From NCBI RefSeq assembly GCF_014926405.1, contig NZ_JACXXJ020000005.1, positions 3,723,629 through 3,787,628 of the forward strand: 64,000 nt of DNA, written 5' to 3'. The translations under genes were made by a program, and so were the position numbers. The notes under the pieces are model-generated. The model made no database searches. It was not told where the DNA came from and saw only the letters and a list, made by a program, of their open reading frames with translations. Within the stretch, counting starts at the first letter, position 1; every line of letters begins with the position of its first letter. The stretch comes from Agrobacterium vitis (GTDB taxonomy: Bacteria > Pseudomonadota > Alphaproteobacteria > Rhizobiales > Rhizobiaceae). This document shows, piece after piece, positions 33,379-56,377 of this stretch.

Positions 33379-33656
33379 GGACTGCCTCCTGCAGAATCAA
33401 TCGGCTGAGAGCTGGGCCTTTCCGGTCTGAACTCCGGTCCGACCTGCATCATGCAAGCTCATGTCTGTCTTCTTTTGGTTTCTCGCGTTGGAAAGCCGAT
33501 AACCATGTTTCCTGACAAACTCTAGCAGAGAGAATCCGCGCGTCTATCGCCCATCTATAAAATAACATGGGGAACAAACGTTTGAGGTGTGGAAAGAGCC
33601 GGTTTCGCTTGTGAAGCGATCCTGCTCGATCCTTGATGGCTGGCCTTGATGCCTGA

Positions 33657-34541: not shown

Positions 34542-34901
34542 CTCGTCTTCCTCTGATGTGGCCGGTTTGTACGGCCTCTTTCCGTTAAAGCGTCTTCCGC
34601 CTGAAGAAGCGGGTTGTTAGCCTTCTGATTTATGATGCATAATCCATTGTCAATCCCGATCAATTCAGGGGGCTTGGCTCCGACCTAGTAAACTATTTTT
34701 CTTTTAAGGAAAAGTGTTGAAGAGCCATGAGAATGAAACTGCCGGGTTTGCGGGGCAAAAGGTGGTCCGATTGCGTCTTCATGCGCCGCATTGTGTCGCA
34801 ACATTATGGTAGGACGCCGAATGACAGCGCAAATAAGTCCAGTCGCTGTTTGCCAGCACAATAGCTGCCTGCGTGACAGAACGAAAAACGAGGATAAGCA
34901 A
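34542..34901. other. purU - glycanase divergent intergenic region
   Basis: A 360-bp stretch between divergent purU and the GH5 gene. In-frame extension of the GH5 frame back to 34791 exists but lacks a ribosome site and signal peptide logic. No riboswitch-like structure or promoter motif stands out. Confidence 0.4.
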
Positions 34902-40917: not shown

Positions 40918-42065
40918 GCAATGCCCAGGTGATGACTGATGTTAAGACGCGCCGTCATGTTCTTGTTGTGACCGGGCAGCATTTCGCCGATGCGCCGCGC
41001 AAGGTCGATCTGCATTTCATGGCACACAGTCTGCTGTCGCGGGGCGACAGGGTGGATTTCCTGGTCTGGCGGCTCAGCCCGATCAGCCGGCTGCTGAAGG
41101 ATGGGCGTTATGCCTTTGCCCGCACGCATCGCCTCAACCAATGGGAGGGTTTGAGCGAGGGACTGCGGCAATTCATCTGGTTTCAGCTGCTCCATCCCAT
41201 GAACCTGAAATTTTCCTGGCTCAATCGCCTGGCCGATCCGCTGTTTTCGCGCGTCAGTGCGTTTTTGCCCAAAGCGGTCCGCGATGGGCTGTCTTCCTAT
41301 ACCCATATCCTGGTGGAAAGCGGTCCTTCGCCGCTGCTGGCCCCGGTGCTTCGCCAGCATGCGCCGAAGGCCCGGATCATCTACCATGCTGCCGACCGGC
41401 TTTCGACCATTGGCGTGCCGCCTGCCGTTTACCGGACGCTTGAAAAGACCATCGGCCTTTACGATAGCGTCCATGTGCTGGCGCAGGCGCTGCTGGCGGA
41501 TTTTCCCAGCGATGCGCCGCTGCTTTACTTGCCGCATGGCATTGATAAGGCGGCTTTCGATGCGAGCGGTCAAAACCCCTATCAGAGCGGCGCTTACCAA
41601 GGCCGCAAGCATGCTGTCAGCGTTGGCGACATGCTGTTTGATGCCGATGCCATCGATGTCATGGCCGCCGCCAATCCGGACTGGACCTTTCATCTGTTCG
41701 GGGCCAAGGCATTGCCGCGCCGGGTGCTGCCCAATATCGTCGCCCATGGCGAACAGGCTTTCGAGCGGATCGTGCCGTTCATTAAATTCGCCGATCTCGG
41801 CATCGCGCCTTACCGGGATGGGGCAAGCGCGGATTATCTCAGCCAGTCGAGCCTGAAGATGATCCAGTATAGCTATTGCCGCTTGCCGATTGTCGCGCCG
41901 CATTTTGCTGCGATGGGGCGGGGCCACGTGATGGGCTATGACCCCGCCGATCCAGTCTCGATCCGCGCAGCGTTTTCAGCCGCAGGGGCGTTTGATCGTC
42001 AGACGATTGCAACGGATGGTGTTTTAAGCTGGGACGAGACAGTCGATGTCTTGTTTGCGGGGTGA
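40914..42065 (+). CDS. GumK-like glycosyltransferase
   Basis: This 383-residue protein has the N-terminal stretch VLVVTGQHFADAPRKVDLHF, which resembles xanthan glucuronosyltransferase GumK (GT70). Later it has the GT-B type donor region PYRDGASADYLSQSSLKMIQ. GumK adds glucuronate to a lipid-linked acceptor at the membrane. The start overlaps the preceding gene by 4 bp (ATGA), so both transferases are made together. The glucuronate assignment is tentative; general glycosyltransferase function is firmer. Confidence 0.78.
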   Translation: MSNAQVMTDVKTRRHVLVVTGQHFADAPRKVDLHFMAHSLLSRGDRVDFLVWRLSPISRLLKDGRYAFARTHRLNQWEGLSEGLRQFIWFQLLHPMNLKFSWLNRLADPLFSRVSAFLPKAVRDGLSSYTHILVESGPSPLLAPVLRQHAPKARIIYHAADRLSTIGVPPAVYRTLEKTIGLYDSVHVLAQALLADFPSDAPLLYLPHGIDKAAFDASGQNPYQSGAYQGRKHAVSVGDMLFDADAIDVMAAANPDWTFHLFGAKALPRRVLPNIVAHGEQAFERIVPFIKFADLGIAPYRDGASADYLSQSSLKMIQYSYCRLPIVAPHFAAMGRGHVMGYDPADPVSIRAAFSAAGAFDRQTIATDGVLSWDETVDVLFAG

Positions 42066-42119: not shown

Positions 42120-43640
42120 ATGAGCAATGGAATAGTCGCAAATTCCGCGTTCAATGCGGCGGCAGGGCTGACCCTGCTGGCGACGGGATTCATATGCTCG
42201 ATCTTCACGGCACGGGTTCTTGGCCCGGAAGCCAATGGGATTATCGCCTTTTCCGTCTGGCTTGCCTCCACGGCGGCACTGGTGGCCGAACTTGGCACCG
42301 GCGTGTTATTGCTGCGTCTGCTGCCGCAGCTGAAAGGGCAGGGTTACGGCGAAAGTGACCGCAAAGGGTTCGCCGCCTATCTACTTTGGCCGGTGGTTGG
42401 CTCGACATTGCTGTTGCTAGCCTTCTATTTCCTGTTTTTCTGGGTGGCTGAAAGCAGGCATTGGGCAGAAACCGCGCCTGAAGTGCTGGTGGTGACGGCG
42501 CTGTTGTTTGCCACGCAGGCCATCGGGATGTTTGCCAAGAATTACCTGATTGGCGAACAGCGGGTGGATATTTTCTTCCGCATGACCTTGACGGCCGGGC
42601 TGCTGCAATTGGTTGGCGTTGTGGCGGGTACCTTGCTGTTCGGTGTTCCGGGCGCGCTGTTCGGCTATGTTCTGGCCTATATTTCCCAGTTTCTCTTTGC
42701 TGCGTCCCTGTTGCGCCACAAGGTGAAAAGCTGTGGCATCGGGCTTCGTTATCTGCTTGGCTCCTCCTTCGTGCTCTCGCTGGAATTCATGGTGGATTCG
42801 ATCTTCCTGAACCGGATCGAGCTGTTTTTCCTGCAACGTTATCAGGGCATTGAGACGGTCGGCTATTATTCCGTGGCCTTCTCGCTGACCAATCTTGCTT
42901 TGCAGGTACCGATCCAGCTTTCCGGCAGTCTTGTGCCTTATTACGCCGAACATCTGCACCGCGCGCCGGGGGGACGGTTGCCTGTGGCGATGTTTGAAAG
43001 CGTGGTGCGCAGTCTCGCTTATTTCACGCTGCCGATGAGCCTGGGCCTGGCGGCGGTGTCGCATCGGCTGGTCACGCTGGTGTTTGGCGATGCCTTTGCC
43101 CCGAGCGCGCCGATGCTGACGCTGCTAGCGCTGTCTGTGCCGGTTGCCGTTGCCTGTCAGGTGGCGACACAATATCTGTTTGCCCTCGATAAAATCCGCC
43201 AAAGACTGTTTGTCGGGCTGGGCGGTGCGTTTATCATGCTGGTCGGGGATGTTTTGCTTGTGCCTTCCTACGGGGGAGAAGGTGCGGCTTTCGTGCGGAT
43301 CGTGGTGTTTACCGCCATGAGCCTGGCGATGCTGCGCTGGATGCGGTTCGAAGGGTCATTGGCGCCGCTGGGGCTTAGTCTTTTCAAGGTTACCGTGGCC
43401 GCTGGCTGTTGTGCGGCGGCGGCTTTGGCGGTGCAGGATGTGGTGCCGGGTATCGGTGGCCTTGTCCTTGCCATTGTCGGCGCCGTCAGCGTCTATTGCC
43501 TGGCGCTGCGGCTGTTGCGGGCCGTGCCGGAGGCGGATGTATCGGTCATGGCAGGGCTGATCGCCCGTTTGCCAAAACGGCTGGCGGGGCCTTTGAATGT
43601 GGTTTTGATGTTGCTGACCGCGACACCCAAACGGAGCTGA
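42120..43640 (+). CDS. Wzx-like polysaccharide flippase
   Basis: This 506-residue integral membrane protein of the MOP/PST exporter superfamily has about 12-14 hydrophobic helices. The N-terminal helix carries NSAFNAAAGLTLLATGFICS and the family-typical ARVLGPEANGIIAFS. It should move the finished lipid-linked repeat unit across the inner membrane for polymerisation. It follows the second transferase by 54 bp. With GumC-like and Wzy-like proteins it completes a Wzx/Wzy pathway; the priming transferase and outer-membrane porin are not in the window. Confidence 0.88.
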   Translation: MSNGIVANSAFNAAAGLTLLATGFICSIFTARVLGPEANGIIAFSVWLASTAALVAELGTGVLLLRLLPQLKGQGYGESDRKGFAAYLLWPVVGSTLLLLAFYFLFFWVAESRHWAETAPEVLVVTALLFATQAIGMFAKNYLIGEQRVDIFFRMTLTAGLLQLVGVVAGTLLFGVPGALFGYVLAYISQFLFAASLLRHKVKSCGIGLRYLLGSSFVLSLEFMVDSIFLNRIELFFLQRYQGIETVGYYSVAFSLTNLALQVPIQLSGSLVPYYAEHLHRAPGGRLPVAMFESVVRSLAYFTLPMSLGLAAVSHRLVTLVFGDAFAPSAPMLTLLALSVPVAVACQVATQYLFALDKIRQRLFVGLGGAFIMLVGDVLLVPSYGGEGAAFVRIVVFTAMSLAMLRWMRFEGSLAPLGLSLFKVTVAAGCCAAAALAVQDVVPGIGGLVLAIVGAVSVYCLALRLLRAVPEADVSVMAGLIARLPKRLAGPLNVVLMLLTATPKRS

Positions 43641-43797
43641 GGGGGCTACAGCCTCCCTTGTCCTTCCGGTTGGAACAAGGTCTGCTGGCGTCCTTTATAT
43701 ATGCTCAATAATTTTCACCTTAAATCCATGGAGATTTAAGGGATTATGCAGTAGCCGTCTTTGAGAGAGTGCCGTGGGGCAAGGAAAGGGCAGGTTG

Positions 43798-45708
43798 ATG
43801 GAAGCGATAACCGAGCGGGTTGGCCCGGCATCTGGCCAGCGGCTTCAGCCGCACCAGCATGCTGTGGCTCAGCCGGTCAGCTTTGCTGGCACCTTCGGGC
43901 TCTATCAGCCGGCGGAGGGCGCCAAGCAAGGTGTGGTGCGCAAATGCGCGGTGCTGTTTCTCCAGCCCTGGGGCTTTGAGGAAATGTGCACGCACAAGCT
44001 TTTCCGCATCATTGCGGAGGAACTGGCGTGTGAGGGCATTGCCAGTCTGCGCTTCGATTATCCCGGCACGGGCGATGCGCTGGACCCGCCGGACCGAACG
44101 CTTGGCCTGTCGCTCTGGCAAGATACGATCCGCGCGGCGCTTGAGGTGCTTGCCGAAAAGACCGGCGGCTTGCCGGTGATTTTGCTGGGGCATGGGCTGG
44201 GTGCATCGCTTGGCGTGGGCATGGCCGCAGAACTCGATGGCCTGGCGGGATTTGTCGCCATGGCTCCCGTGGCCTCGGGTCGTGCATATCTCAGGGAATT
44301 GCAGTTCTGGGCGCGGGTCATCGATGACGGATTGGGCCTGGCCGAACATTTGCGGCTCAGCGGGATGACGGCCATTGCCGGGCATGTGATGCCGGATGCA
44401 AAGGCCTCGGCCTTGAAGAAAACTGATTTTTCCGCCGTGCAGCCGCATCGCTCCATTCCGCATCTGTTCGTCAACCGGGCGGATCGGCCGGGTGACGGGC
44501 AAATGGCAAAGCAGTTGGAAGCAAAAGGCGCCCGCGTCGAGAGCATCGACTATCCGGGCTATGATGCGATGGTCGGCAATCCCGCCATGGCCCGCATGCC
44601 CATGGTGGCGGCTGAAAATGTCATAAGCTGGATCGTTCGCCGCGCAGCAGCGCTTGGCGAGCAAAAGCGTCCGTTGGCTGCCGATTCCTCACTGGCATCC
44701 GTACAAGGCGAAGATCAGGCGCACCTGGATGGCTTGGATTTTCGCGAGACGGCCCTTCGGTTTGGCCGGGGCAAACGGCTTTATGGTATTTTGTGCGAGC
44801 CGACCGGTCCCCGATGCGGCGCAAGCGTTCTGTTGCTCAACACTGCCTATGACCGCAGTGCGGGATGGGGACGCTCGGGTGTCGCCATGGCGCGCAAGCT
44901 TGCAGGCGACGGGATTGCCTCCCTGCGCTTCGATGTTGCCAATGTCGGCGATAGCCCGCCGGTGCCGGGCCTGCCGGATCAGGTGCTATACGCCGAAACC
45001 CAATATGACGATGTGGAAGCGGCGCTTGCCGTTCTCGAAGAGCGTTCACTGCTGCCCAGTGTGGTGGCCGGACGGTGCAGTGGCGGTTATCTCGGGTTTT
45101 CCTGCATGACCAAGGATCATCGCATTGCCGGAGCCTGCCTGGTTAATCCCTTCGTCTTCTATTGGGATAAGAGACGGCGGGTGGAAGACGGGCTAGCTGT
45201 GGTGCCGCGTTCGCTCGATACCTACAAGCATCGGCTGTTTCAGATGCAGACCTTGCGACGTCTCTGGCGGGGCAAGGTGGATGTGAAAAACGCGACCCGC
45301 AATTTCGCACTGGTTGGCGTGCGTCGTGTGTTGAGCCGCCTTGGCCTCGCCCAGGTCTTCAGCCGTGATGTCCGGCTGGAGCATCGGGCCGTGCGCGTCG
45401 CCTTTGCCGCTCTGGCAAAGCGAAAGACGCCGCTTGTGCTGCTCTATAGCGAGCAGGACGTGGGTCTTGACCATTTCTATCAGCATTTCGGTCCCCAGGG
45501 CCGCAAGTTGGAACGCTATCCCAATGTCCGCACCGACATTCTGGCGGAAACGGATCATAATTTCTCTCCCGCCGCTGCCCAGCAGCGCTATTTCGAGGAA
45601 ATCAAGGCGCTGGCGATGACGGTTCAGGCGTCGAAATTGCCTGCCCAGCAGATCAAAGCCGGTGTATCCGCAGGCAAAGAACCCGTCTCAGAACCGGAAG
45701 CGTCGTAA
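43798..45708 (+). CDS. tandem alpha/beta hydrolase protein (exopolysaccharide-associated)
   Basis: This 636-residue protein holds two alpha/beta hydrolase domains (about 28-285 and 315-620). Both carry the same repeat motif, ACEGIASLRFDYPGTGD and AGDGIASLRFDVANVGD. The nucleophile elbow of the first is GHGLG, with Gly133 where the nucleophile should be; the second is GRCSG with Cys427, and a possible catalytic His in ETDHNFS near the end. It resembles hydrolases linked to exosortase/EPS loci. It may add or remove acyl groups on the polymer. ATG 43798 is preferred to a GTG at 43774. Confidence 0.78.
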   Translation: MEAITERVGPASGQRLQPHQHAVAQPVSFAGTFGLYQPAEGAKQGVVRKCAVLFLQPWGFEEMCTHKLFRIIAEELACEGIASLRFDYPGTGDALDPPDRTLGLSLWQDTIRAALEVLAEKTGGLPVILLGHGLGASLGVGMAAELDGLAGFVAMAPVASGRAYLRELQFWARVIDDGLGLAEHLRLSGMTAIAGHVMPDAKASALKKTDFSAVQPHRSIPHLFVNRADRPGDGQMAKQLEAKGARVESIDYPGYDAMVGNPAMARMPMVAAENVISWIVRRAAALGEQKRPLAADSSLASVQGEDQAHLDGLDFRETALRFGRGKRLYGILCEPTGPRCGASVLLLNTAYDRSAGWGRSGVAMARKLAGDGIASLRFDVANVGDSPPVPGLPDQVLYAETQYDDVEAALAVLEERSLLPSVVAGRCSGGYLGFSCMTKDHRIAGACLVNPFVFYWDKRRRVEDGLAVVPRSLDTYKHRLFQMQTLRRLWRGKVDVKNATRNFALVGVRRVLSRLGLAQVFSRDVRLEHRAVRVAFAALAKRKTPLVLLYSEQDVGLDHFYQHFGPQGRKLERYPNVRTDILAETDHNFSPAAAQQRYFEEIKALAMTVQASKLPAQQIKAGVSAGKEPVSEPEAS

Positions 45709-48135
45709 GGCAGAGCCGCTGAGGATTTCGCCGCTGGGTTTCTCCGGTGTTAGAAGCCTGACCCGGCGGGCAAAACCCGGCGCCAGATGAAAGAAATCAT
45801 CGGTGCTGCGGCCGTCTTCAAGGGCGATATGGACGGATTGGGCCAGCCGGTCGGTTTCCAGCATCAGCCACCAGCCATCCTTTTCCTGCGACAGCGTGGT
45901 ACGGATCTCTGCGTCATGCATGGCCGGGGCGCGGCCTTGCGGGAAGTGAAAGGACTGACTGACGATCTCGCCGTTTTCCGCGTTGCTCAGGGTCGCCACA
46001 GTGACGTCATGGGCGGGCGGCCCGAAGCGGAAGGCATAGGTCGTGTCGAAAAACGCTCCAAACAGATCTGTGGCATGCAGTGTTATGCCGCTCTGCGGGG
46101 GCAAGATGACGGCGCGCCTTGCGGCTACGACCAGCGATTTACCGTCGCGCAGGCAGGTGAGATCCAGGGTCAGAGTATGTTGCCGCATCGTGTCATTGCA
46201 AAGATGCACATCTAGCCCATTGGTGCCTTCGTCGGTCATGGTGATGCGGATGGGGTTGAAGGCGCGCCGCGCTGCGTACCAGACGGGTTTCGGTGTGCCG
46301 GTCGCATCCACCAGTCCCCAGCCGGGACCGATGTTCAGGTCCTGAAAGATCCAGACCAGCGCGCCATTGCAGGATGAACCGGGCCGGCGCCATTCCGCAT
46401 AGGTTTCCTCCAGCACCTCTCCACTGACCGCCCGCGACAGATGCAGGTAACGCGCCGGATTTTCCCGGCGCAACCGAGCCGGATCGACACCGTAGAGCAG
46501 GGCGAGATAATGGTCGCGAATATCCTCGAAATCCCAGGAGGCACCCCGGTCTCGCGGCACACGCGTCTTCCAGCGAGGATCATGAACCGGCGACACGGAC
46601 AAATGGCTGTCGAGCGTCTGTTGCTGGGGGACATGGGCAAAGGCCAGGCATTCGGCGGCAAAACGGACTTGGGCGCGACGGGCGTCCTCAAGCGGGCGGC
46701 AATAGGCGCCGACGCCGTAATAATGGGTGACGCCGGTATCCGGGCTGAAGGGCATTGTGCCACCCATCGGTGAATTTTCCACATAAGGCAGATGTGGTGC
46801 AAAGCGCGCGCAGAGCTGCGGCAGAAGGCTGGTGAAGACAGGGCCTTTCCAGCTGGTTTCCGGCAGGCCCAGCATGGCGCCCTGCTGATAGACTTCGCTG
46901 CCGCCGCACAGGATCGCCAGCGAGGGAGAGGACTGTACGGCGCTTAACAGTTGCTCCACTTCCCGGCGGATATGGTCGGAAAATGCCTCGTCGGCAGCGG
47001 GATAGTCGAAATTGGCCAGCATGATATCCTGCCAGACCATTAGGCCCAGCTGATCACAGAGCCTGAAGAAATCGGCGCTTTCATAGGTCATGGTGCCGCC
47101 AATGCGGATCATGTTCATGCCAGCATCTGCGGCCATGCTCAGCCAGGACGCATAATCCTCGGCGGTGCTGGGCAGGCGGGTCAGGTTGGCATTGGTCCAG
47201 ACGGCACCCCGGCAGAAGATTTTCACGCCATTGACGAAGATCGCGAAATCCTTGCCATCCGCGCCCCGGTCAACCCGGATGCGGCGAAATCCGGTGAGAC
47301 CAAGCGAATGCGGCTTTCCATCCAGCGTCAGGTGAATGTCGTGCAGCACCGGCTCACCATGGGTGCGCGGCCACCAGGGCGCAACAGTGGGAAGACGAAG
47401 CTGGCCCGCGACATGGCCGTCGGCATCGGCTTTGAGATCGAGAGTCTCACCCGCACATGTCACGGATATGGCTGTCACACTGCCAGTCAGCTGGAATGCG
47501 ATGTCGAGCAGCCCGGTGCCGTTTTCATCGAGATCGGCGTGCAGCGCGAGGTCGGTTATCGTGCTTGTGCCGGGGCGGATCAGGCTGATTGGCCGATACG
47601 GCCCGACTGCATGAATATCAGGGCACCAGCCTGGCATATGGCCAAGGGCGGTTGTGCGCACCAGCCGCAGGCCCTGGTCGCTCATCATCTGCGGTCGCCA
47701 GCGGGCTCTTGGGCCTCGTCTTTCCAGATGAGGCTTGAGCGCGCGAAAGCAGATCGACAGGTCGTCCGAGCCGGTCAGCATTACATCGACATCATGGGCC
47801 TCGAACATGCTCTGCGATGACAGGATCAGCCTGTCGTTCAAATAGACCTCGGCAATGGTCGCCAAGCCTTCGAAGCGCAGCACCGCAGGGCCGGGCTGTT
47901 CGCCGGTCAGGGGGCGGAGATACCAGATGTCCTTGCCATGCAGCGGGCTTGGATGATCAGGATCGAATAGGCCCGCCTTGGTCAGCGCCTGGGCAACGGT
48001 GCCGGGTACTGGTGCCTGAAGGCGGGCGCTGGCGCGGTGCAATGCCTTCGGGCTGTCATAGGTGCCTGGCTCGCAGACCAGCAAGGTCCAACCGGCTTCC
48101 AGTGGGCGGATGTCGGCATCGAGATAGGTGATCAT
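45688..48135 (-). CDS. GH2 family beta-mannosidase-like glycoside hydrolase
   Basis: This 815-residue protein has the GH2 order: sugar-binding jelly roll (about 10-190), Ig-like domain (190-290), TIM barrel (290-600) and C-terminal beta domains. The likely acid/base is Glu414 in LAILCGGSEVYQQG (WNGxNE in classic mannosidases, so an atypical surrounding). The likely nucleophile is Glu495 in RFAAECLAFA. No signal peptide is seen, so it is cytoplasmic. It lies behind the carrier-protein module on the same strand, with a repeat between. Substrate may be a mannose-containing repeat unit or oligosaccharide. Confidence 0.82.
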   Translation of the reverse strand: MITYLDADIRPLEAGWTLLVCEPGTYDSPKALHRASARLQAPVPGTVAQALTKAGLFDPDHPSPLHGKDIWYLRPLTGEQPGPAVLRFEGLATIAEVYLNDRLILSSQSMFEAHDVDVMLTGSDDLSICFRALKPHLERRGPRARWRPQMMSDQGLRLVRTTALGHMPGWCPDIHAVGPYRPISLIRPGTSTITDLALHADLDENGTGLLDIAFQLTGSVTAISVTCAGETLDLKADADGHVAGQLRLPTVAPWWPRTHGEPVLHDIHLTLDGKPHSLGLTGFRRIRVDRGADGKDFAIFVNGVKIFCRGAVWTNANLTRLPSTAEDYASWLSMAADAGMNMIRIGGTMTYESADFFRLCDQLGLMVWQDIMLANFDYPAADEAFSDHIRREVEQLLSAVQSSPSLAILCGGSEVYQQGAMLGLPETSWKGPVFTSLLPQLCARFAPHLPYVENSPMGGTMPFSPDTGVTHYYGVGAYCRPLEDARRAQVRFAAECLAFAHVPQQQTLDSHLSVSPVHDPRWKTRVPRDRGASWDFEDIRDHYLALLYGVDPARLRRENPARYLHLSRAVSGEVLEETYAEWRRPGSSCNGALVWIFQDLNIGPGWGLVDATGTPKPVWYAARRAFNPIRITMTDEGTNGLDVHLCNDTMRQHTLTLDLTCLRDGKSLVVAARRAVILPPQSGITLHATDLFGAFFDTTYAFRFGPPAHDVTVATLSNAENGEIVSQSFHFPQGRAPAMHDAEIRTTLSQEKDGWWLMLETDRLAQSVHIALEDGRSTDDFFHLAPGFARRVRLLTPEKPSGEILSGSALRRFRF

Positions 48136-48150
48136 CGGCTATGCGTCCCT

Positions 48151-48253
48151 TTAGAGCATTTCCAGGAAAAGTGTGAAGCGGTTTTACGTCCGGAAATGCG
48201 CAAAACAAAGACCTGGAGCATTTCCGCGATTCAACGAAGCGCTGAAATGCTCC
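48151..48253. repeat. rhizobial-type intergenic palindromic repeat
   Basis: The sequence starts TTAGAGCATTTCCAGGAAAA and ends GCTGAAATGCTCC. It contains GAGCATTTCC / GGAAATGC pairs and AAGCGGTTTTACGTCCGG. This resembles a repeat seen many times between genes in Rhizobium and Agrobacterium chromosomes. It sits between DUF1839 and the GH2 gene, where it could stabilise or weaken read-through mRNA. Confidence 0.7.
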
Positions 48254-48289
48254 AAAAGCAAGACGGTGCCTGAATGACCCGATCTGGTC

Positions 48290-49258
48290 TCAGCCGATCT
48301 TGCTGGCAAGCCCCGTCATCAGCCTGTCCCATGCGTCAATCGCGGGGTCAAGCGCTGCTTTCAGTGGTTCGAATTTCTTGCGGGTGACGGCGCGGGCCAG
48401 TTGGAACTGGACGGTTTTTGCCAGCTCGGAAATCCGCAATGCTTCGGCAATTTCGCTCGTATAGCGATCGTCTGCTGCAAGCCAATGCAAGTGACTGGCT
48501 AGAAGCTCGAAATTCGCCCCGAATTGCCGCAACGTGTTGAAGGCATAGGTATGAAAATAGCCGAAGGGCCGCTCCGCGATGGCCTCCACCTGGGCTGGAA
48601 AGACCACTGCAAACGCCGCAAAGGGATTGTCTTGCGGGCGGCGGGCAAAGTGAAAGGCGAAAAGCCGCTCAGCGACCTGGCGCAGATGCGTCTCGTCAGG
48701 CCGAGTTTCGGGGAATTTGGCAAATTCCGTATAGGGCAGGAATGGAAGTGCGGCCTCCGGTGCTGCTAATTGCCAGATTCCGTCGAAATCCTCGGCTTCG
48801 AGCCGGAAAAATCCGCCATTGTGGAAATAATCCATTGAGCGGCCTGCGAGATCCAGCCGGTTGATACCGACCGTGGTCTTGCCATGGTGCTGGCGATAAC
48901 CGACGCCAGCGGTGTCAGGCATGAAATAGCTGTCCATTTCGACAAGGCACAACCGGCCACGGCTGATCTGCTGGGCCACATGCGTCTCGGCCCGATCGAA
49001 AATTGCCAGTTCTGTGACACGAATGCCGTAAAGCGCTTCAAGATCTTCCAGCGGTACCTTGAAGAAGGTGAACTGGTCGCCCTCGAAATCCTGGGTCAGG
49101 GTAAAACCCAGCATGGCCTCCGGCGGCAGGCCCAGCACGGACAGGACCTCGATCCACAGATCGACATAGCAATTGGTTTCCGGCCACATGCGCTCAGCCG
49201 AATGCAGTGCATGCGGCTGGTAGCGGGCCGGATCGAGCGGCAGGACCGTGGTCATCAT
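48290..49258 (-). CDS. DUF1839 family protein
   Basis: This 322-residue soluble protein of DUF1839 starts [20 protein letters not shown] and has WPETNCYVDLWIEVLSVLG near residue 30 and GDQFTFFKVPLEDLEALYGI near 65. The family has no known activity and is found almost always beside amino acid:carrier-protein ligases. Its start shares one base with the ligase stop (TGATG), and an upstream frame extension inside the ligase gene was dropped. It may use or release the aminoacyl group held on the carrier protein. Confidence 0.82.
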   Translation of the reverse strand: MMTTVLPLDPARYQPHALHSAERMWPETNCYVDLWIEVLSVLGLPPEAMLGFTLTQDFEGDQFTFFKVPLEDLEALYGIRVTELAIFDRAETHVAQQISRGRLCLVEMDSYFMPDTAGVGYRQHHGKTTVGINRLDLAGRSMDYFHNGGFFRLEAEDFDGIWQLAAPEAALPFLPYTEFAKFPETRPDETHLRQVAERLFAFHFARRPQDNPFAAFAVVFPAQVEAIAERPFGYFHTYAFNTLRQFGANFELLASHLHWLAADDRYTSEIAEALRISELAKTVQFQLARAVTRKKFEPLKAALDPAIDAWDRLMTGLASKIG

Positions 49259-50166
49259 CAGCCCCAGAGTGCGCTGCGCACCGATTGCGGCCAGGCCTTG
49301 ACGTCCAGCCCGTGGTGATGGAACAGCGCCAGGGCGATCCGCTCCAGACCGAAGCCAACGCAAGCGGTATGGGCAACCGAACCGTCTTCCAGGTTCAGGC
49401 CCCATTTGCTGCCAAAGGCATCCTGATGATAGTTGAAGCTCATGCAGGCGGTGGGCTTGGCGACCGAGGTGATCGGGATCAGCAATTCGAATTTCAGGTT
49501 CTGGTCGCGCTGGTTATTGGCCAGCATCTTGCCAGCGCGTCCGAAGAACGGATCGTTGGCAATGTCGATTTCAACCGGCAATGCCACCTCTTCCATCATT
49601 TTCAGGCCGCGATCCATCCAGGTCTGGCGGAAATCGGTGACATGGCTCTCTGAACCCATGCAGACATATTCGCGCATGCGAAACAGCTGCTGGCGGGCCG
49701 GATCGGTCGAGGGTTCATGGCGGAAACAATAGGATTGCAAGTCAAACAGTGCGCCGGAGGCTGCAATCGGGCCACGCTTGGCAATGGTTGGATAGAGCGG
49801 ATAGCAGGCGGCAGGCGTCAACACGATATCCGTCGCTTTCTGGTCCTTCGTCCAATCCTCGTCGGCATCCATGCATTTCAGCAGGCTGACATGGTCGAGT
49901 TCGTTGCCGCAGAAGCTGTGGACGGTGCCGGCCAGCTGCGGAAAGCTTTTCATATAGCCGCTGGTCTCGAAATAGGCGCGGTTCATGCCTGGCGGAAAGC
50001 GCAGAGCTTCTGCGCCATCCGCGCCACCGAACCGGTCGATCAACCGCTCGAAAGCGGCGATAACATCTTCAAACTGGCCGCTACGGCCATAAAGCCCGTC
50101 CACGCCAGTATCGATCAGCAGGCCGGCCTCGAACAGCCGGTCGAGAAAATTGGTTTGACTATCCAT
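49258..50166 (-). CDS. amino acid:[carrier protein] ligase (SerRS-like)
   Basis: This 302-residue protein is a class II aminoacyl-tRNA synthetase catalytic core without a tRNA-binding domain. Zinc ligands Cys121 (AACYPLYP), Glu166 (RMREYVCMG) and Cys269 ([11 protein letters not shown]) fit the atypical SerRS pattern, and motif 3 is [12 protein letters not shown]. Homologues Bll0957 and Atu2573 load glycine or alanine onto the phosphopantetheine arm of a small carrier protein. ATG at 50166 was taken; the longer frame runs into the flavoprotein gene. It lies 4 bp after the flavoprotein gene in the module. Confidence 0.9.
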
Positions 50167-50170
50167 TTGC

Positions 50171-51370
50171 TTACCCCAGCAGACGTGTGTCGAGTTTATG
50201 AACCAGCAACATATTGGATGTGTTGGCGAGAATGCGGTCATTGGAAATCATCAGCCGGGCGGAATGCGCGTCGCGCAGATGGCGTCCGAGGCTGTAGGGC
50301 GTGCCATTCTTGTAACCCATGATGCCGCAGATCAGCATGGCCTGGTTGATGATGTCGATAATCGTCTCGGACGAGGCGATCTTGACATTGTTCATCGTCA
50401 CCGAAAAGCCGAAGGACGACAGCTTGTCGCCATCGTATTTTGCCTCTTCATAGGCTTTCAGCGCGGCAACGACATTGGAGCGGACCAACTGCAACAGATT
50501 GGCGGCTTGCGCCAGATGCAAGGCACCAGGCGGCATCTGACCCTGGCTCTTGCGGGCGGCGGCACGCACGAAACTCTGCGCTCTCGCCACGGCATCGACA
50601 GCGATGCCGTACCAGACGCCGCTCCATAGAATATGGGAGGCGGCCAGCATCGACTGGGCGGCAATGTCGGCGAAGGGCTTCGGCAGGATCTGGACGGCCG
50701 GCGCTTCGCCCTTGAACAGGAAGCCATCGGACCGGGTGCCGCGCATGCCGAGCGTGTCCCAGTCCACGGTCTTGTCCAGGCTATATTGGCCCTTGAGAAA
50801 TACCGTCATCACCTGGTCGGACGGTGCGGCATCCTTATGGGCGCGCGAGGTGATCAGGATCGCATCGGCCTCTGCTCCATAGGAAATCACCGTGGCGTCC
50901 TTTTCCAGTCGGCAGGTGTCGCCGTCGATCTCGATGGCGCAGATGGAATTGCGCATATTGCCGCCAATGCCGCCTTCAGTCGTGGCGGAGCCGAGCAGCA
51001 ATTGTGCATCAGCGACCCGTGCCATGAAGCTGCGCTGCCAGGCATTGTCCTGGGCATGTTCCACGAGGCTGGAACATTTGATGTGATGCATGGCGAAAAT
51101 CATCGCGCTGGAGGCGCAGGCCTGGCCAAGCGTGGTGCAGATCTCGGCAATTGCGGCAAATCCGGCATTTTCACCGCCAAGCTCCGCTGGGATCTGGATG
51201 CCGAGCAGTTGCTCCGCCTTCAATGCGTCCACGGTCTCGCGCGGAAACCGGCCCTGGCGATCGACATCCTCGGCATATTGCGCCGCAATCGCGGCAACGC
51301 GCGCCGCGCGGGCAGCAAGATCACCTTGGGGAGGCGATGTTTCAAGGGCGTGAGTGGCCGGAACGGTCAT
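50171..51370 (-). CDS. acyl-CoA dehydrogenase-like flavoprotein (carrier-linked)
   Basis: This 399-residue acyl-CoA dehydrogenase fold protein has N-terminal helices, a middle domain with [18 protein letters not shown] and [14 protein letters not shown], and a C-terminal helical bundle. In context the substrate is probably an aminoacyl or acyl group held on the neighbouring carrier protein, not a CoA ester. Related flavoproteins oxidise prolyl-carrier proteins in pyrrole formation. Its start overlaps the carrier protein stop by one base (TGATG). The reaction is unknown. Confidence 0.82.
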
Positions 51371-51621
51371 CAGGCGACCTTCCGATCCTCCAGGATCTGG
51401 CGCACCGTGCGTTCGATGGCCTCGATGCTGGCAAAGGATTTGCGATTGAGCAGATGGTCTGGAAATTCGATGTCGAAGGCTTCCTCGATACCGAGCATCA
51501 GTTGCACGGAAGCAAAGGAAGACAGTCCCAGTGCGTAAAGATCGGCATCAGCCGCAATCTCTGCAACGGCAACCTGCAAGCCGCCAACTCTGCCCAGAAT
51601 AGTCCGAATGGTCTCGTTCAT
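51370..51621 (-). CDS. acyl/aminoacyl carrier protein
   Basis: This 83-residue four-helix carrier protein has the phosphopantetheine site YALGLSSFASVQ; Ser35 is the attachment residue, and the usual preceding Asp is Ser34. The acidic helix II that docks partners is visible (GIEEAFDIEFPDH). It is the first gene of the four-gene module and the expected substrate of the SerRS-like ligase. A ribosome site AAGAGGGG precedes the ATG. Confidence 0.88.
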   Translation of the reverse strand: MNETIRTILGRVGGLQVAVAEIAADADLYALGLSSFASVQLMLGIEEAFDIEFPDHLLNRKSFASIEAIERTVRQILEDRKVA

Positions 51622-51853
51622 CTCAACCCCTCTTAGGAAATCTGTCTGATCAGGAGAATTGCAATAGACCAGAAATCGTAAGATTAGGCTAATATGAATA
51701 TCTCAATTCTTTTGATCGTGTCTAAGATTCTAACAGGATCGTTGAAGTTTCAAATCTTTAAGGTTTAATATTCTCGGCTTTTTTTGGGTTTATCTGAATT
51801 TTCTAAAAGTTGTATATTTGAAAAATGTATACTTTTGATTGCGAAGGCTATTT
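51622..51853 (-). promoter_or_regulatory. AT-rich promoter region of the carrier-protein module
   Basis: About 230 bp, much more AT-rich than the flanks, between epmB and the carrier protein gene. On the minus strand TTGAAA and TAGAAT occur with a 15-base spacing in the middle, a weak sigma-70-like pair. No GGAAC site is present. Confidence 0.4.
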
Positions 51854-52903
51854 CTACTGATCGCGATAGATATGGTGATGTCCATGGAAGTCCGTGACCC
51901 GATATTGATCGCCTTCCTTGCTGATCCGGCTCGCATCGATTGGCGCCTTGCCATGGCCGCCGGGAATATCCAGTACGTAAGTCGGCTGACAGAGACCGGA
52001 CAGATGCCCATGCAGAGCCGAGACGATGGCCTGGCCTTCTTCTATACTGAGGCGGAAATGGCCGGTGCCGGGCGCCAGATCCGGGTGATGCAGGTAATAA
52101 GGCCGGATACGCATGTCGACGAAAGCGCGCATCAGCTCCGCCAACACGCCAGCATCGTCATTGACACCCCTCAGCAGCACCGTTTGACTTAAAAGTGCAA
52201 AGCCGGCTTGCAGAAGCTTTGCGCTCGCCGCCCTGGCTTGCGGCGTCAGCTCGCGCGGATGGTTGGCGTGAATGGCGATATAGGTGGTCTTGCCGCTTGC
52301 CTGCAAGGCGTCGATCAGATCCTTGTCGATACGGGCCGGATCGGCGACAGGAACGCGGCTGTGAAACCGGATGATCCGGACATGATCGATGGTGCCCAAT
52401 TGCTGCAAGATTGACCGCAGCCGGCGTGGCGACAGAACCAGCGGATCGCCGCCGGTAAAGATCACTTCCCAAATATCCTTGTGGTCACGAATATAGGCTA
52501 TGGCCGCGTCTAGCGCCGGGCCGGAGAGCAGGCCATCACCGTCCGGCCCGACCATTTCACGGCGAAAGCAGAAACGGCAATAGACCGGGCAGCTATGCAC
52601 CACCTTCAACAGAACCCGGTCGGGATAGCGATGCACAATGCCCTCCACCGGGCTATGGGCATGGTCACCGATCGGATCGGCCCGCTCCACGGGTTGATGC
52701 ACCAATTCGCCAGCCTGCGGCACGAATTGCGCGGCAATCGGGTCTTTGGGGTCTTTTGGGTCGATGAGCGCCAGCATTGCGGGGGTAATGGCAATGGCGT
52801 AGCGGGCAGCCACCGCGTCCAATTCCGGACCGGTTTCGGCAGCAACAAGTCCGGTCTCGACCAGCTCTCCGACTGTTTTCACGGTTCTGACGGGAGCGGT
52901 CAC
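51854..52903 (-). CDS. epmB: EF-P (R)-beta-lysine pathway lysine 2,3-aminomutase EpmB
   Basis: This 349-residue radical SAM protein of the KamA family has the iron-sulfur motif SCPVYCRFCFRRE (Cys105, Cys109, Cys112) and VIFTGGDPLVLSPRRL near residue 145. It turns alpha-lysine into (R)-beta-lysine for EF-P modification. The proposed start is GTG at 52903, overlapping the epmA stop as GTGA, since no ATG fits. The length and adjacency to epmA identify it as EpmB and not a fermentative KamA. Confidence 0.9.
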   Translation of the reverse strand: MTAPVRTVKTVGELVETGLVAAETGPELDAVAARYAIAITPAMLALIDPKDPKDPIAAQFVPQAGELVHQPVERADPIGDHAHSPVEGIVHRYPDRVLLKVVHSCPVYCRFCFRREMVGPDGDGLLSGPALDAAIAYIRDHKDIWEVIFTGGDPLVLSPRRLRSILQQLGTIDHVRIIRFHSRVPVADPARIDKDLIDALQASGKTTYIAIHANHPRELTPQARAASAKLLQAGFALLSQTVLLRGVNDDAGVLAELMRAFVDMRIRPYYLHHPDLAPGTGHFRLSIEEGQAIVSALHGHLSGLCQPTYVLDIPGGHGKAPIDASRISKEGDQYRVTDFHGHHHIYRDQ

Positions 52904-53973
52904 GGCTGCGGCTCCGCCACCGGCGTCCACAACACCTGATCGATCCGCTGCGCACCGGTCGCCAGCAGCACCAGCCGGTCGAAACCGAGCGCGATACCTG
53001 ACGCTTCGGGCATGATGGCCAGCGCTTCCAGAAAATCCTCGTCCAGCGGATAAGTCTCGCCATAGACCCGCTGCTTTTCCGCCATTTCCAGCATGAAGCG
53101 ACGGCGTTGCTCCTGCGGATCGGTCAGTTCGCCAAAGGCATTGGCCAGTTCGACACCGCAGGCATAAAGTTCAAACCGTTCGGCGACACGCGGGTCTTCG
53201 GCCGCAGGCCGGGCAAGGGCGGCTTCCGCCACTGGATAGCGATCGAGAATGGTGGGTCGGTCAAAGCCCAGATGCGGTTCGACTTTTTCAACGATCACCC
53301 GGCTGAATAGATCGGCCCAGCTATCATCTTCGGCGACGCGCATGCCCACCTGCCGTACCTGTGCGGCCAGATGGTCGCGGTCGGTTTCGCCACCGGCAAA
53401 CACGCTGCCCAGAAGATCGATGCCCGCATGGCGCTCGAAAGCGTCCGCAACGCTAAGCCGCTCAAACGGTGCAAAGGGATCGCAAACGCCGCCACGGAAG
53501 GAAAATTGCCGGGTTCCGGTCGTTTCGGCGGCAAGGGCCAGGATGGCGGCGCAATCGTCCATCAGCCGCTCATAGGGTTCTCCGGCGCGATACCATTCCA
53601 GCATGGTGAATTCCGGGTGGTGCAGGGGACCGCGCTCCCGGTTGCGGTAAACATGGGCAAAGCAGGCGATACGAGGCTCACCGGCGGCCAGCAGTTTCTT
53701 GCAGGCAAATTCCGGTGATGTATGCAGGTAAAGAGGATGCGATTTCCCGTCATTGCCGATAGCGCGTGTTGCGAAGGCATGCAGATGCGCCTCATTGCCG
53801 GGCGACACCTGCAAGGTTGCCGTGTCGACCTCCAGGAAGTCGTGACGGCTGAAATAGAGCCGCAGGGCGGCCTGGATGGCATTGCGGCCAAGCAGGAAGG
53901 GGCGGCGGTCGGCATGGACCCGCGGTGTCCACCAGGGAGAGGCGGAGAGGCGCTTTTCGCTCATTCCAGTCAT
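52900..53973 (-). CDS. epmA: EF-P lysine lysyltransferase EpmA (GenX/PoxA)
   Basis: This 357-residue class II LysRS-like catalytic domain lacks the anticodon-binding domain. It has [40 protein letters not shown] (motif 2) and [15 protein letters not shown] (motif 3). It attaches beta-lysine to a lysine of EF-P. It is divergent from efp (162 bp apart) and coupled to epmB. ATG at 53973 is used; a second ATG three codons later is also possible. Confidence 0.95.
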
Positions 53974-54135
53974 TGCACTCTTAATCTTTCGTCCTTGGCC
54001 GGTAATTCGGCTGCAACACGGGCTGGCTATTTCGGCAAATTTGGGTTAGGTGCGCCCCATGCAACGTCACAGCATGTCAAAGGGGCGCCGGGTCGTCCTT
54101 TACGATGTGTGTTTGAGAGATACAAGGAATTCCGA

Positions 54136-54705
54136 ATGGTCAAGGTCATCGCCTCTTCGGTCCGCAAGGGCAATGTTCTCGAAGTCGACGGCAAGCTCTA
54201 TGTCGTGCTTACCGCGCAAAACTTCCATCCCGGCAAAGGCACGCCGGTGACCCAGATCGACATGCGCCGCATTGTTGACGGCGTGAAAGTGTCGGAACGC
54301 TGGCGCACGACCGAGCAGGTGGAGCGCGCTTTCGTCGAAGACGTCAACCACCAGTTCCTCTACGAGGATGGTGAGGGCTTCCACTTCATGAACCCGGAAA
54401 ACTACGACCAGATCGTCGTGGATGTCGAGACCATGGGCGACCAGAAGGCCTATCTCCAGGAAGGCATGACCTGCGTTATCTCCATGTATGAAGGTGTTGC
54501 GCTGGCGCTTGACCTGCCGCGCCATGTGACGCTGGAAATCATGGAAACCGAACCGGTCGTCAAAGGCCAGACGGCATCCTCGTCCTATAAGCCTGCGATG
54601 CTTTCCAATGGCATCCGCACCCTGGTACCGCCGCATATCAATGCCGGAACCCGCGTGGTGATTGCCACTGAAGACAACTCCTATGTTGAGCGTGCCAAGG
54701 ACTGA
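54136..54705 (+). CDS. efp: translation elongation factor P
   Basis: This 189-residue three-domain factor relieves ribosome stalling at polyproline. The modification site is Lys34 in [10 protein letters not shown], and the C-terminal domain has [20 protein letters not shown]. The frame is open far upstream, but the ATG at 54136 gives the conserved N-terminus [16 protein letters not shown]. Presence of Lys34 with epmA and epmB nearby shows that the beta-lysylation branch is used. A terminator follows at 54762. Confidence 0.97.
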
Positions 54706-54761
54706 TGTCCGGCACTCCGGCGCCTTCATCTGTCGTTTCTGGCTGATGTTTGATTAAGGAA

Positions 54762-54794
54762 AAGCCCGGTTCGTTTTCGCGAGCCGGGCTTTTT
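54762..54794 (+). terminator. efp terminator
   Basis: Stem AAGCCCGG / CCGGGCTT with a 14-base loop that itself pairs partly is followed by four more T residues. Confidence 0.85.
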
Positions 54795-54872
54795 GCTGTT
54801 ATGCGGGAACTTTAAAGACGCTTATGTTCAGCGCTGTCGGCAATACGCAATGCAAACAAAGTGACCATCAAT

Positions 54873-54906
54873 AAAAAACGCCCGGCGATCAGGATCGCCG
54901 GGCGTT
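54873..54906 (-). terminator. terminator of the efflux operon
   Basis: A 14-bp perfect stem (AACGCCCGGCGATC / GATCGCCGGGCGTT) with a 2-base loop carries a U-run on the minus strand (complement of 54873-54878). It lies 20 bp after the outer membrane channel gene. Confidence 0.9.
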
Positions 54907-54925
54907 TGCATGAGAAGTCTGGTGT

Positions 54926-56377
54926 TTACTTGGCTTTGGCAAGCGCTGGCGGGATATCCGCAGGCTTGACAGTGGCTTCAATAGCCTGGGCCTTGCCATT
55001 AAAATTATAACCGCCGCCAATGGCCACATTCAGTGTCACATAGTCATTGGCCATTTGCTGGATCGACTCGGCAAGGCTTGCCTGAGCGGTGGTCAACTCA
55101 CGCTGCGCATCCAGGACATCGAGCAGGGACGACGCGCCGTCCTTATAGGATGCGGTCGAAAGTTCGAGCGCTTCCTTATAGGACTTTACATAGGCGCGAT
55201 TGGCTGCAACGGCGCGAGCATCGCGGTTATAGGCAGCAAGCGCGCTTTCAACGTCTTCGACGCCGTTCAGCACAGTCTGCTTCCAGGCCAGGTATTTTTC
55301 ACGAGCGACCGACTGGGCGTTCTTGACATTGGCACGCAGCGTGCCGCCATCGAAAATCGGCAGGTTGAGTGACGGGCCAAAGGACCAGGTATTGGCTGTG
55401 CCATGGGTGTTGGAATGCACATAGGACGGCGAAATCGAGCCGCTGAGCGTGATCGAAGGCAGCAACTGCGCCTGCGCATTGCCGATGTCGTAAACGGCGG
55501 CGGCCAGATCGCGTTCGGCCTTGCGAATGTCAGGACGGTTGCGGATCAGATCAGCCGGAATTCCCGACAGAACCACACGACGGGCAACCGGCTGAGGAGC
55601 ATGCTTCTTCAGATCGTTGATGAGCGTCGAGGCCGGAAGGCCAAGAAGCGTCGAGATGTGATAGGCATTGCTATAGAAATTGGCTTCGAAACCGGGAATA
55701 TCCGCCAGCTGCGAGTTGACCAGACCTTCGGACTGCACGACGTCGAGGCGCGAAGCTGCACCGGCCTCAAGCTGCAGCTTGGTCAGCGCAAGGGTTTCGC
55801 GGCGAGATTTGACGGCTTCGTTGGCGATTGCGATTCGAGCCTGATAGTAGCGGGCATCGATATAGGCTGTTGCCAGATCGGAAAGATAGGTCAGGCGAGA
55901 GGTATCGACGCTGGCATAGGCGGCATCAAGCGATGCAGTAGCGCTCTGCTTGGCGCGGCGATATTGACCCCAGAGATCGAGAAGCCAGGACGCGGAAAGC
56001 TCGCCTTTGGATTCCCAGGCCCGAGGCTGAGAATTATAGCCGCCATTGGTCTGGCTGCCGCTTTCGCTTGCCGTACCTGTCAGGCTAGGCAGGCCGCCGG
56101 CAGATGAGGTGACGACGGTCGCGCGCGCCTGCTCGATCCGCTCCAGTGCCTGCAGAACATCGAGATTCTGGTTGACGCCCTGGTTGATCAGCGTGTTGAG
56201 GCGCGCATCGTTGAACGCCGTCCACCACTGAACTGTGGTCGTGTCTTGCGCAGACTTCGTGCCGCCCTCAGTAAACTTGGCAGGAAGTGCGGTTTGTGGC
56301 GGGCTGTGCTCGGGCCCCATCACGCAACCTGACAGAAGCAGCATTGCAAAGGGCGCAGCTAAGCGTACGGAGACCAT
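54926..56377 (-). CDS. RND efflux outer membrane channel lipoprotein (NodT/OprM family)
   Basis: This 483-residue protein has a lipoprotein signal with lipobox LLLSGC (cysteine at 17) and two outer membrane efflux (TolC-like) repeats. Visible family stretches are VQWWTAFNDARLNTLINQGV and IRNRPDIRKAERDLAAAVYD, the latter typical of NodT/OprM. It forms the exit duct for the pump and adaptor encoded upstream. Gene order adaptor-pump-channel resembles ameABC of Agrobacterium. A hairpin at 56451 separates it from the pump gene. Confidence 0.92.
   Translation of the reverse strand: MVSVRLAAPFAMLLLSGCVMGPEHSPPQTALPAKFTEGGTKSAQDTTTVQWWTAFNDARLNTLINQGVNQNLDVLQALERIEQARATVVTSSAGGLPSLTGTASESGSQTNGGYNSQPRAWESKGELSASWLLDLWGQYRRAKQSATASLDAAYASVDTSRLTYLSDLATAYIDARYYQARIAIANEAVKSRRETLALTKLQLEAGAASRLDVVQSEGLVNSQLADIPGFEANFYSNAYHISTLLGLPASTLINDLKKHAPQPVARRVVLSGIPADLIRNRPDIRKAERDLAAAVYDIGNAQAQLLPSITLSGSISPSYVHSNTHGTANTWSFGPSLNLPIFDGGTLRANVKNAQSVAREKYLAWKQTVLNGVEDVESALAAYNRDARAVAANRAYVKSYKEALELSTASYKDGASSLLDVLDAQRELTTAQASLAESIQQMANDYVTLNVAIGGGYNFNGKAQAIEATVKPADIPPALAKAK

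Follow-up and report, generated by a model that had tools for sequence, protein, structure and literature searches.

What becomes of an amino acid loaded on a free-standing carrier protein is the question raised by four genes packed at positions 48290–51621 of the analysed window, a 64,000-nucleotide stretch of the Agrobacterium vitis contig NZ_JACXXJ020000005.1. In the literature searched, the role of the aminoacylated carriers of this ligase family has been open since 2010. The four genes encode a carrier protein, a flavoprotein, an amino acid:carrier-protein ligase and a DUF1839 protein, and they are accompanied by genes for a glycoside hydrolase of family GH2 and a tandem alpha/beta-hydrolase. 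The reading tentatively favoured here, at a little under an even chance, is that these six genes form one pathway, in which glycine or alanine would be loaded on the carrier, likely oxidised there and transferred by DUF1839 to an amine, likely on a sugar or glycoside.

The recomputed coordinates and residues agreed with the close packing reported in an earlier, sequence-only reading of this DNA: the carrier and flavoprotein genes overlap by 1 base, a 4-bp gap separates the flavoprotein and ligase genes, and the ligase and DUF1839 genes share 1 base when DUF1839 starts at the earlier of its two ATGs. The GH2 gene lies on the same strand as DUF1839, 154 bp beyond its end, and overlaps the end of the convergent hydrolase gene by 21 bp. 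Rhizobia, Azospirillum and Burkholderiales share this order of the carrier, flavoprotein, ligase, DUF1839 and GH2 genes. Among 80 loci, representing the closest of 126 retained ligase relatives in named genomes (79 with rhizobial names and L017, titled Arenimonas), the DUF1839, flavoprotein and GH2 genes accompanied the ligase in all 80 and the carrier in 79, the exception (L042) being a locus that begins inside the flavoprotein gene. Thirteen more distant loci (L102–L114) were searched with tblastn, and 11 of them had the complete five-gene set in unchanged order. L106 proved to be a DUF1839 copy with no adjoining ligase, in L102 the GH2 and hydrolase genes were direct neighbours on a different contig of that genome, and the flavoprotein missing from the 20-kb tblastn summary of L103 was found in a short stretch of the same place (L083). 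Presence counts rest on tblastn because greedy open reading frame (ORF) calls in the GC-rich loci included wrong-strand ORFs. Chance or an annotation artefact was considered as the origin of the module and rejected in view of the conserved gene set across loci.

In a phylum sample of 398 genomes, the DUF1839 profile PF08893 was detected in 16, and the ligase family was found above its cut-off in 28 and below it in 16 more. All 16 DUF1839 genomes were among the 28, and the other 12 had the ligase without DUF1839. Co-inheritance was examined in 31 genomes, comprising these 16, the 12 ligase-only ones and three further genomes with DUF1839 drawn from the class sample. The module-type GH2 was present in 19 of the 19 DUF1839 genomes, with no match at E ≤ 1e-10 in the 12 ligase-only genomes. 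Both halves of the hydrolase were likewise found in 19/19, and an intact two-half hydrolase in 0/12, G688 having two short separate pieces. Within the 398 genomes, GH2 matches above 700 bits occurred in exactly the 16 with DUF1839, the next best match scoring 146 bits. The hydrolase gene lay within 10 kb of the module in 52 of the 80 loci; for loci with neither the hydrolase nor an exopolysaccharide (EPS) homologue nearby, of which 12 of 19 were sampled, it was located elsewhere in the genome in 12 of 12. The distribution of the module is patchy (29 of 151 family, 5 of 385 class and 16 of 398 phylum genomes, and 59 of 72,556 plasmid records), and the counts are not independent events because the sampled genomes are related. 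The check on co-occurrence with GH2 suggested earlier thus gave 80/80 loci and 19/19 DUF1839 genomes: GH2 is part of the unit and not the mere neighbour it had been taken for, and the tandem hydrolase is its sixth member, often detached from it. This strict co-inheritance defines the complete gene set to express.

The split between genomes with and without DUF1839 was also observed in phylogeny. In a maximum-likelihood tree, ligases with DUF1839 (13 rows) were separated from those without (11 rows) by one branch with a support of 100/100, and the flavoprotein tree split in the same way (28 vs. 12 rows, 100/100); both trees are unrooted, contain long branches and were built from hand-chosen subsets of 24 and 40 rows, respectively. 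The crystallised ligase Bll0957 (3mey) scored 714 bits against the ligase of L139, from the side without DUF1839, and 310–327 bits against the window ligase, and therefore represents the other lineage. In that lineage the flavoprotein adjoins the ligase in 12 of 12 loci, and no carrier was matched by tblastn at E ≤ 1e-3 within stretches of about 4 kb, where a diverged carrier is possible.

Residue conservation was scored in complete proteins covering more than 80% of the query length, with the start codon found by script. The set was drawn from 109 loci and comprised 59 ligases, 106 flavoproteins, 49 hydrolases, 96 DUF1839, 91 GH2 and 95 carriers; these numbers precede the addition of the window row and the exclusion of later rows, and one gene (L110 and L141) was counted twice among the flavoproteins.

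The ligase (49258–50166, minus strand; 302 aa from the ATG at 50166, with the ORF open to 50241) scored 522.9 bits with the NF005479 profile, above the curated cut-off of 357, and 326.5 bits against the structure 4h2w; its best match was a protein of A. vitis CG78 (99% identity). It corresponds to the catalytic core of a synthetase without the tRNA-binding region (302–327 aa), the match to seryl-tRNA synthetase (SerRS) spanning only residues 311–505 of 3w3s (527 aa). The zinc ligands proposed earlier, Cys121, Glu166 and Cys269 in the 302-aa numbering (C146, E191 and C294 in the longer ORF), were correctly assigned and invariant in 60 of 60 aligned ligases, as was Ser35, the phosphopantetheine site of the carrier, in 95 of 95 carriers. 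The carrier itself (51370–51621, minus strand; 83 aa) matched PF00550 (36.8 bits) and NCBIfam PRK07081 (118.7 bits) and scored 106 bits to 2jq4 (Atu2571) and to 4h2w_C. The ligase family and these residues support the formation of an aminoacyl thioester, as the sequence-only reading had suggested. In the first step of the proposed pathway the ligase would adenylate Gly or Ala and load it on the carrier phosphopantetheine; such ligase activity has reportedly been published for homologues.

The transfer step is suggested by the DUF1839 protein (48290–49258, minus strand; second ATG at 49255). It scored 466.9 bits with PF08893, and its whole chain matched the fold of papain-fold carrier-dependent amide synthetases of the CcbD/CtaG group. 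A nucleophile-type Cys29 near the N-terminus was conserved in 62 of 62 sequences, and in 95 of 96 of a second set, together with T127 (60/62), H145 (61/62) and H124 (61/62), candidates for the other positions of a triad. The specific fold match supports the role as transferring enzyme assigned to DUF1839 earlier, and names a likely condensing enzyme and its chemistry, from carrier to amine with formation of an amide. In the predicted reaction, Cys29 would take the aminoacyl group from the carrier and the acceptor amine would attack it, as in CcbD.

UniRef lists several DUF1839 entries under the name 'Serine--tRNA ligase' or 'Succinylarginine dihydrolase', the former name perhaps copied from the adjoining ligase gene. 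A second, diverged DUF1839 copy was observed near the tandem hydrolase and apart from the ligase in Burkholderiaceae-type loci (L107:12232-13299, L106:88-1095 and L157:12001-13020), in L107 and L157 also near manC. An orphan DUF1839 gene was located on the conjugative plasmid p3 of Rhizobium sp. NZLR1 (L164:11968-12954), between ParB/helicase-like and Ti-type transfer genes, with no ligase or carrier annotated in that stretch.

The flavoprotein (50171–51370, minus strand) gave domain matches of the acyl-CoA dehydrogenase (ACAD) fold, and its predicted model (mean model confidence, pLDDT, 78.9) had the same fold. Structural comparison left the oxygenases MsuC (36.5), DszC (36.3) and TdsC (36.2) tied with the dehydrogenase ACADSB (35.8). 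KijD3, an enzyme which N-oxygenates an amino sugar, ranked second among the sequence matches. The catalytic Glu of acyl-CoA dehydrogenases was absent: its column, which we take to be the position of MCAD Glu376, held Ile375 in the window protein and Ile (103), Val (3) or a gap (1) in the 107 module flavoproteins. The same column was occupied by Glu in four (L170, L172, L173 and L174), by Asp in six and by other residues in four of the 14 aligned paralogues, out of 21 ACAD-fold matches in the genome. The loss of Glu is therefore not unique to the module, and it is the loss of any acid that distinguishes it from 10 of the 14 paralogues. Position 247, presumably equivalent to the alternative catalytic Glu at IVD-254, was Leu or Ile in 106 of 107, the mapping being inferred from pairwise alignments with no aligned paralogue carrying Glu there.

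These two columns bear on an alternative that is compatible with the other readings but regarded as unlikely, namely that the flavoprotein is a carrier-bound aminoacyl dehydrogenase, like RedW acting on prolyl- and ColB1 on cysteinyl-peptidyl carrier protein (PCP), and yields an imino or dehydro acyl group instead of an N-oxygenated one. Dehydrogenase-type oxidation is weakened because the catalytic Glu, retained in four paralogues, is replaced by Ile, and the presumed second base position is also aliphatic. The identity of an L-prolyl-[PCP] dehydrogenase (NF045652) was rejected at 31 bits against a cut-off of 650. N-oxygenation of the carrier-bound amino acid is the preferred function, the missing base being the only direct evidence for it. 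In this second step the ACAD-fold flavoprotein would oxygenate the bound aminoacyl group, probably at N, since the dehydrogenase Glu is missing and oxygenases of the KijD3/DnmZ/DszC type have the same fold. The earlier idea of an oxidation on the carrier is thus retained as likely by way of oxygenation and loses ground in its dehydrogenase sense.

The remaining two enzymes would act later. The GH2 protein (45688–48135, minus strand; PF22666 and PF17753) is beta-mannosidase-like, with 175.7 bits to beta-mannosidase 5n6u and 143 bits to 2vjx. Its E414 and E495, invariant in 92 of 92 sequences, align with Glu residues of 2vjx that we take to be the acid/base and the nucleophile and are predicted to have these functions. 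This Glu pair and the strict co-inheritance suggest that GH2 may cut a beta-glycosidic bond of the acceptor or of the product. The tandem alpha/beta-hydrolase (43774–45708, plus strand) is related to exosortase-A hydrolases 2 and 1, its matches to TIGR03100 (98.9 bits; cut-off 168.45) and TIGR03101 (63.1 bits; cut-off 202.75) both falling below the cut-offs. The nucleophile position of the N-terminal half was Gly (44, the window protein among them) or Arg (6), and the C-terminal half contained GxCSG with Cys435, as well as His595, in 50 of 50 sequences. We take this GxCxG to be a nucleophile-type motif; a Cys nucleophile would suit thioester chemistry, and in a last step this half may perform a further transfer or the release of the product.

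In 11 of 96 loci the hydrolase was fused to a Wzx-like flippase in a single ORF of 1103–1132 aa (L029:15844-19173, L034:15690-19001 and nine other loci); the reading frame was checked for the 10 plus-strand ORFs, all but L031. Such fusions suggest a way for the product into glycan export by a lipid-linked route. On a Rhizobium plasmid, a 1103-codon gene annotated as an alpha/beta fold hydrolase matches the fusion in length and position.

Homologues of EPS genes, defined by tblastn at E ≤ 1e-8 to the glycosyltransferase, Wzx, Wzc, Wzy or GumK of the window, were found within 10 kb of the module in 47 of the 80 loci and in 46 of 71 full-length rhizobial loci. None was found in 20 control stretches of the same length (Fisher 5e-8 against 46/71, the loci being related), which were hand-placed at arbitrary positions in 7 genomes, some of them on the module's own contig. 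Plasmid records gave a different picture. From 16 plasmid stretches, three (L156, L157 and L162) had no annotation, and 12 of the 13 annotated ones held the five genes in order, L164 being the orphan DUF1839 described above; two of the 12, from Caballeronia, were near-identical. Polysaccharide-assembly genes were annotated in two of the 12 (Shinella WSC3-e and Rhizobium NLR16a), an exopolysaccharide repressor gene in one (R. gallicum) and a lipid A aminoarabinosyltransferase in two from Mycetohabitans. In five of the 12, from Azospirillum and Mycetohabitans, the hydrolase gene completed a compact operon as its sixth member. The A. brasilense operon is of this compact kind and has no annotated polysaccharide genes beside it; in Cupriavidus metallidurans CH34 (L157), manC, Wzc and the hydrolase adjoin the module. 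The link to exopolysaccharide is genuine, not universal. The sequence-only reading had named a module unlinked from glycan genes elsewhere as evidence against its glycan proposal; the loci set against the controls speak for the link, and the two of 12 plasmid copies limit it.

On the conjugative plasmid pRGM101a of R. gallicum (L166:583-15479) the five-gene module follows nifHDK-nifNX-fdxB and the exopolysaccharide repressor gene, and ORFs of similar sizes were noticed upstream of the module copy of R. lentis (L065). A cellulase-like gene was present in the EPS region of the window (34791–35993, judged by sequence), in L156 (GH5, 33640–35166) and in Shinella WSC3-e (cellulase-family).

The most detailed EPS context was observed in Burkholderia cenocepacia CMCC(B)23006 (L156). 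The order there was a Crp regulator, the carrier, flavoprotein, ligase, DUF1839 and GH2 genes and, on the opposite strand, a sigma-54/VpsR regulator, followed by manC, two glycosyltransferases, Wzc, GH5, a family-less 430-aa protein, Wzx, a glycosyltransferase and the hydrolase. The Crp and sigma-54/VpsR regulators were 93% and 95% identical to those of G677, whose locus encodes Wza, Wzc, an acyltransferase, glycosyltransferases, a beta-helix protein and manC. L156 yielded no relatives of the Wza, the acyltransferase or the beta-helix protein of G677, and the two Wzc proteins were only 30% identical. The published bep locus comprises BCAM1330–1341 with a TIGR03100 hydrolase (Table 2 of PMC3584217), and berB and berA are BCAM1342 and BCAM1349 (Table 2 of PMC9684580). 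Judged by sequence, the L156 and G677 loci fit the bep locus and berA/berB, incompletely, and the five module genes would fall among BCAM1343–1348. No mention of BCAM1343–1348 was found in the literature searched, most subscription journals being outside its scope, and a text search of PMC12013268 for the module locus gave no match. A Crp/Fnr-type regulator upstream of the carrier was observed in Azospirillum (L154:8501-9208, with a chemotaxis gene between) and in Burkholderia (L156:16438-17364), which hints at shared control.

This context bears on the possibility, considered rather unlikely, that the module esterifies or amidates an exopolysaccharide or its lipid-linked repeat with Gly or Ala, as in the D-alanylation of teichoic acids. 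It is close to the earlier idea for this window and to a prediction from 2010, and it would explain the EPS adjacency at 46/71 loci vs. 0/20 controls, the Wzx–hydrolase fusion and the B. cenocepacia arrangement, with five genes between the Crp and sigma-54/VpsR regulators ahead of EPS genes, which fits berA/berB and much of the bep list. Alkali strips O-esters, and data on NaOH-treated Bep therefore leave room for an O-aminoacyl ester. According to PMC7084887, 0.3 M NaOH was used to extract Bep and 0.3 M NaOD at 50 °C to measure it, conditions under which O-aminoacyl esters would be removed. However, the papain-fold relative CcbD makes an amide, yet the Bep repeat has no amino sugar; seven of the 12 plasmid operons have no annotated polysaccharide genes nearby, and no DltB-type membrane acyltransferase is included among the six conserved genes.

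The same plasmid copies favour another explanation, held to be quite unlikely, in which the module is a self-contained pathway for a small molecule (a signal, a metallophore or another amide of this kind) and yields no glycan, while GH2 takes off a protecting sugar and the EPS link is regulatory only. Compact six-gene operons without annotated EPS genes, an ABC exporter with a Crp/Fnr regulator upstream in two Azospirillum records and the patchy distribution (29/151 family and 16/398 phylum genomes) speak for it. The Wzx–hydrolase fusions, the EPS genes at 46 of 71 loci against none of the 20 controls and the EPS cluster beside the Burkholderia copy speak against it.

The favoured six-gene pathway, with amide formation on an amine, builds on observed gene order, co-inheritance, the split into two clades, conserved residues, fold matches and locus context, and its individual steps are predictions. 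It also has several points to its disadvantage. DUF1839 is only 10–14% identical to CcbD, CtaG and AziU3, and a shared fold is no proof of function. In DUF1839 the order of the catalytic residues is reported to be C-(T/S)-H, His and Thr/Ser being swapped relative to the usual triad (PMC10318531). The tie between oxygenase and dehydrogenase folds makes the oxygenation step lean on one missing residue, and Glu is likewise missing at that column from 10 of the 14 aligned paralogues, six of which have Asp. Hydrolase matches contained one or two in-frame stops as read in G662, G611 and G728 (one each) and in G886. Seven of the 12 plasmid operon copies had no annotated surface-polysaccharide synthesis gene in the stretch, which is weak evidence because the gene table is incomplete. 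Finally, the Bep repeat is Gal-Glc-Gal-Man and contains no amino sugar (PMC7084887), so that an amide on that repeat is impossible.

A broader version of the six-gene pathway is put forward as somewhat unlikely. A shrunken SerRS would load Gly or Ala on a free carrier, and flavin-dependent N-oxygenation and DUF1839-catalysed condensation with an amino sugar would follow; GH2 and the Cys-hydrolase would then finish a new class of aminoacyl-sugars independently of non-ribosomal peptide synthetases (NRPS). The six-gene cassette would have been spread by plant- and soil-associated proteobacteria and, in Burkholderia, would lie between BerA and BerB, the cyclic di-GMP regulators of a biofilm polysaccharide. 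For the favoured pathway itself, if it is true, the gene set would form amides in a compact line free of NRPS domains and, in some hosts, be tied to a biofilm polysaccharide, with all steps testable with six proteins.

Around the module, the Wzx-like gene (42120–43640) and a GumK_N glycosyltransferase gene (40893–42065) are among the polysaccharide genes beyond the hydrolase. Directly upstream of the carrier, the genes for a KamA-like lysine 2,3-aminomutase, EpmA and EF-P (51854–54705) look like a separate system. They were considered as part of the module and set aside as neighbours: 64 of the 80 loci had them at a distance of up to 10 kb, and they were not found in the others or in L102–L114. 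The 154-bp gap between DUF1839 and GH2 (48136–48289) contains repeated and inverted GAGCATTTCC-like motifs, presumably resembling a rhizobial intergenic repeat element. An Rfam scan of 43000–55000 gave no matches, and a promoter and terminator scan gave no excess over shuffled sequence.

The idea that an amino acid decorates a glycan is largely in print, because a note in proof from 2010 (PMC2922099) predicted the same. In that section the ligase was connected with an acyl carrier protein (ACP), a redox enzyme and a glycosidase, with Atu2574 and with liposaccharide genes; the amino acid was predicted to be ligated through an amide to an amino sugar of the cell surface, with monooxygenation, and Atu2574 (the DUF1839 gene) to be the amide-forming enzyme (PMC2922099). 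The neighbourhood and the proposal of amide ligation with monooxygenation are thus common to both, whereas the note is a prediction from context, in a section with no Atu2574 fold, two-clade split, hydrolase or bep link (PMC2922099). New here are the amide-synthetase fold match, in line with that prediction; the sixth gene, its Cys motif and its fusion to a flippase; the exclusive profile of GH2 and hydrolase; the separation of Bll0957 by the split into two clades; the bep-like location; the control for the EPS link; and the conflict of the amide model with the Bep structure.

Among known systems, BtrH-type papain-like ACP:aminoglycoside acyltransferases share the papain-like fold and a carrier-bound acyl donor, as described in PMC10318531. 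BtrH was absent among the listed structural matches of DUF1839, which is no evidence of a difference. The fold of DUF1839 matches the carrier-dependent amide synthetases CcbD/LmbD (lincosamides), CtaG (closthioamide) and AziU3 (azinomycin); in contrast, its activity is predicted, its identity to them is low, its catalytic residues are reportedly swapped and the operon is another. Both halves of the tandem hydrolase match the TIGR03100/TIGR03101 models of exosortase-A EPS cluster hydrolases but remain below the curated cut-offs and are fused into one protein. Amino acid:[carrier protein] ligases were reportedly described by Mocibob et al. in 2010/2013, with structures of Bll0957 (3mey and 4h2s–4h2y) and the A. 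tumefaciens carrier Atu2571 (2jq4). The ligase family, the zinc ligands and the carrier type are common to the Bll0957/Atu2571 system and the module of the window, whereas Bll0957, the crystallised member, scores with the side of the ligase family that is without DUF1839, GH2 and the intact hydrolase and so belongs to the other lineage.

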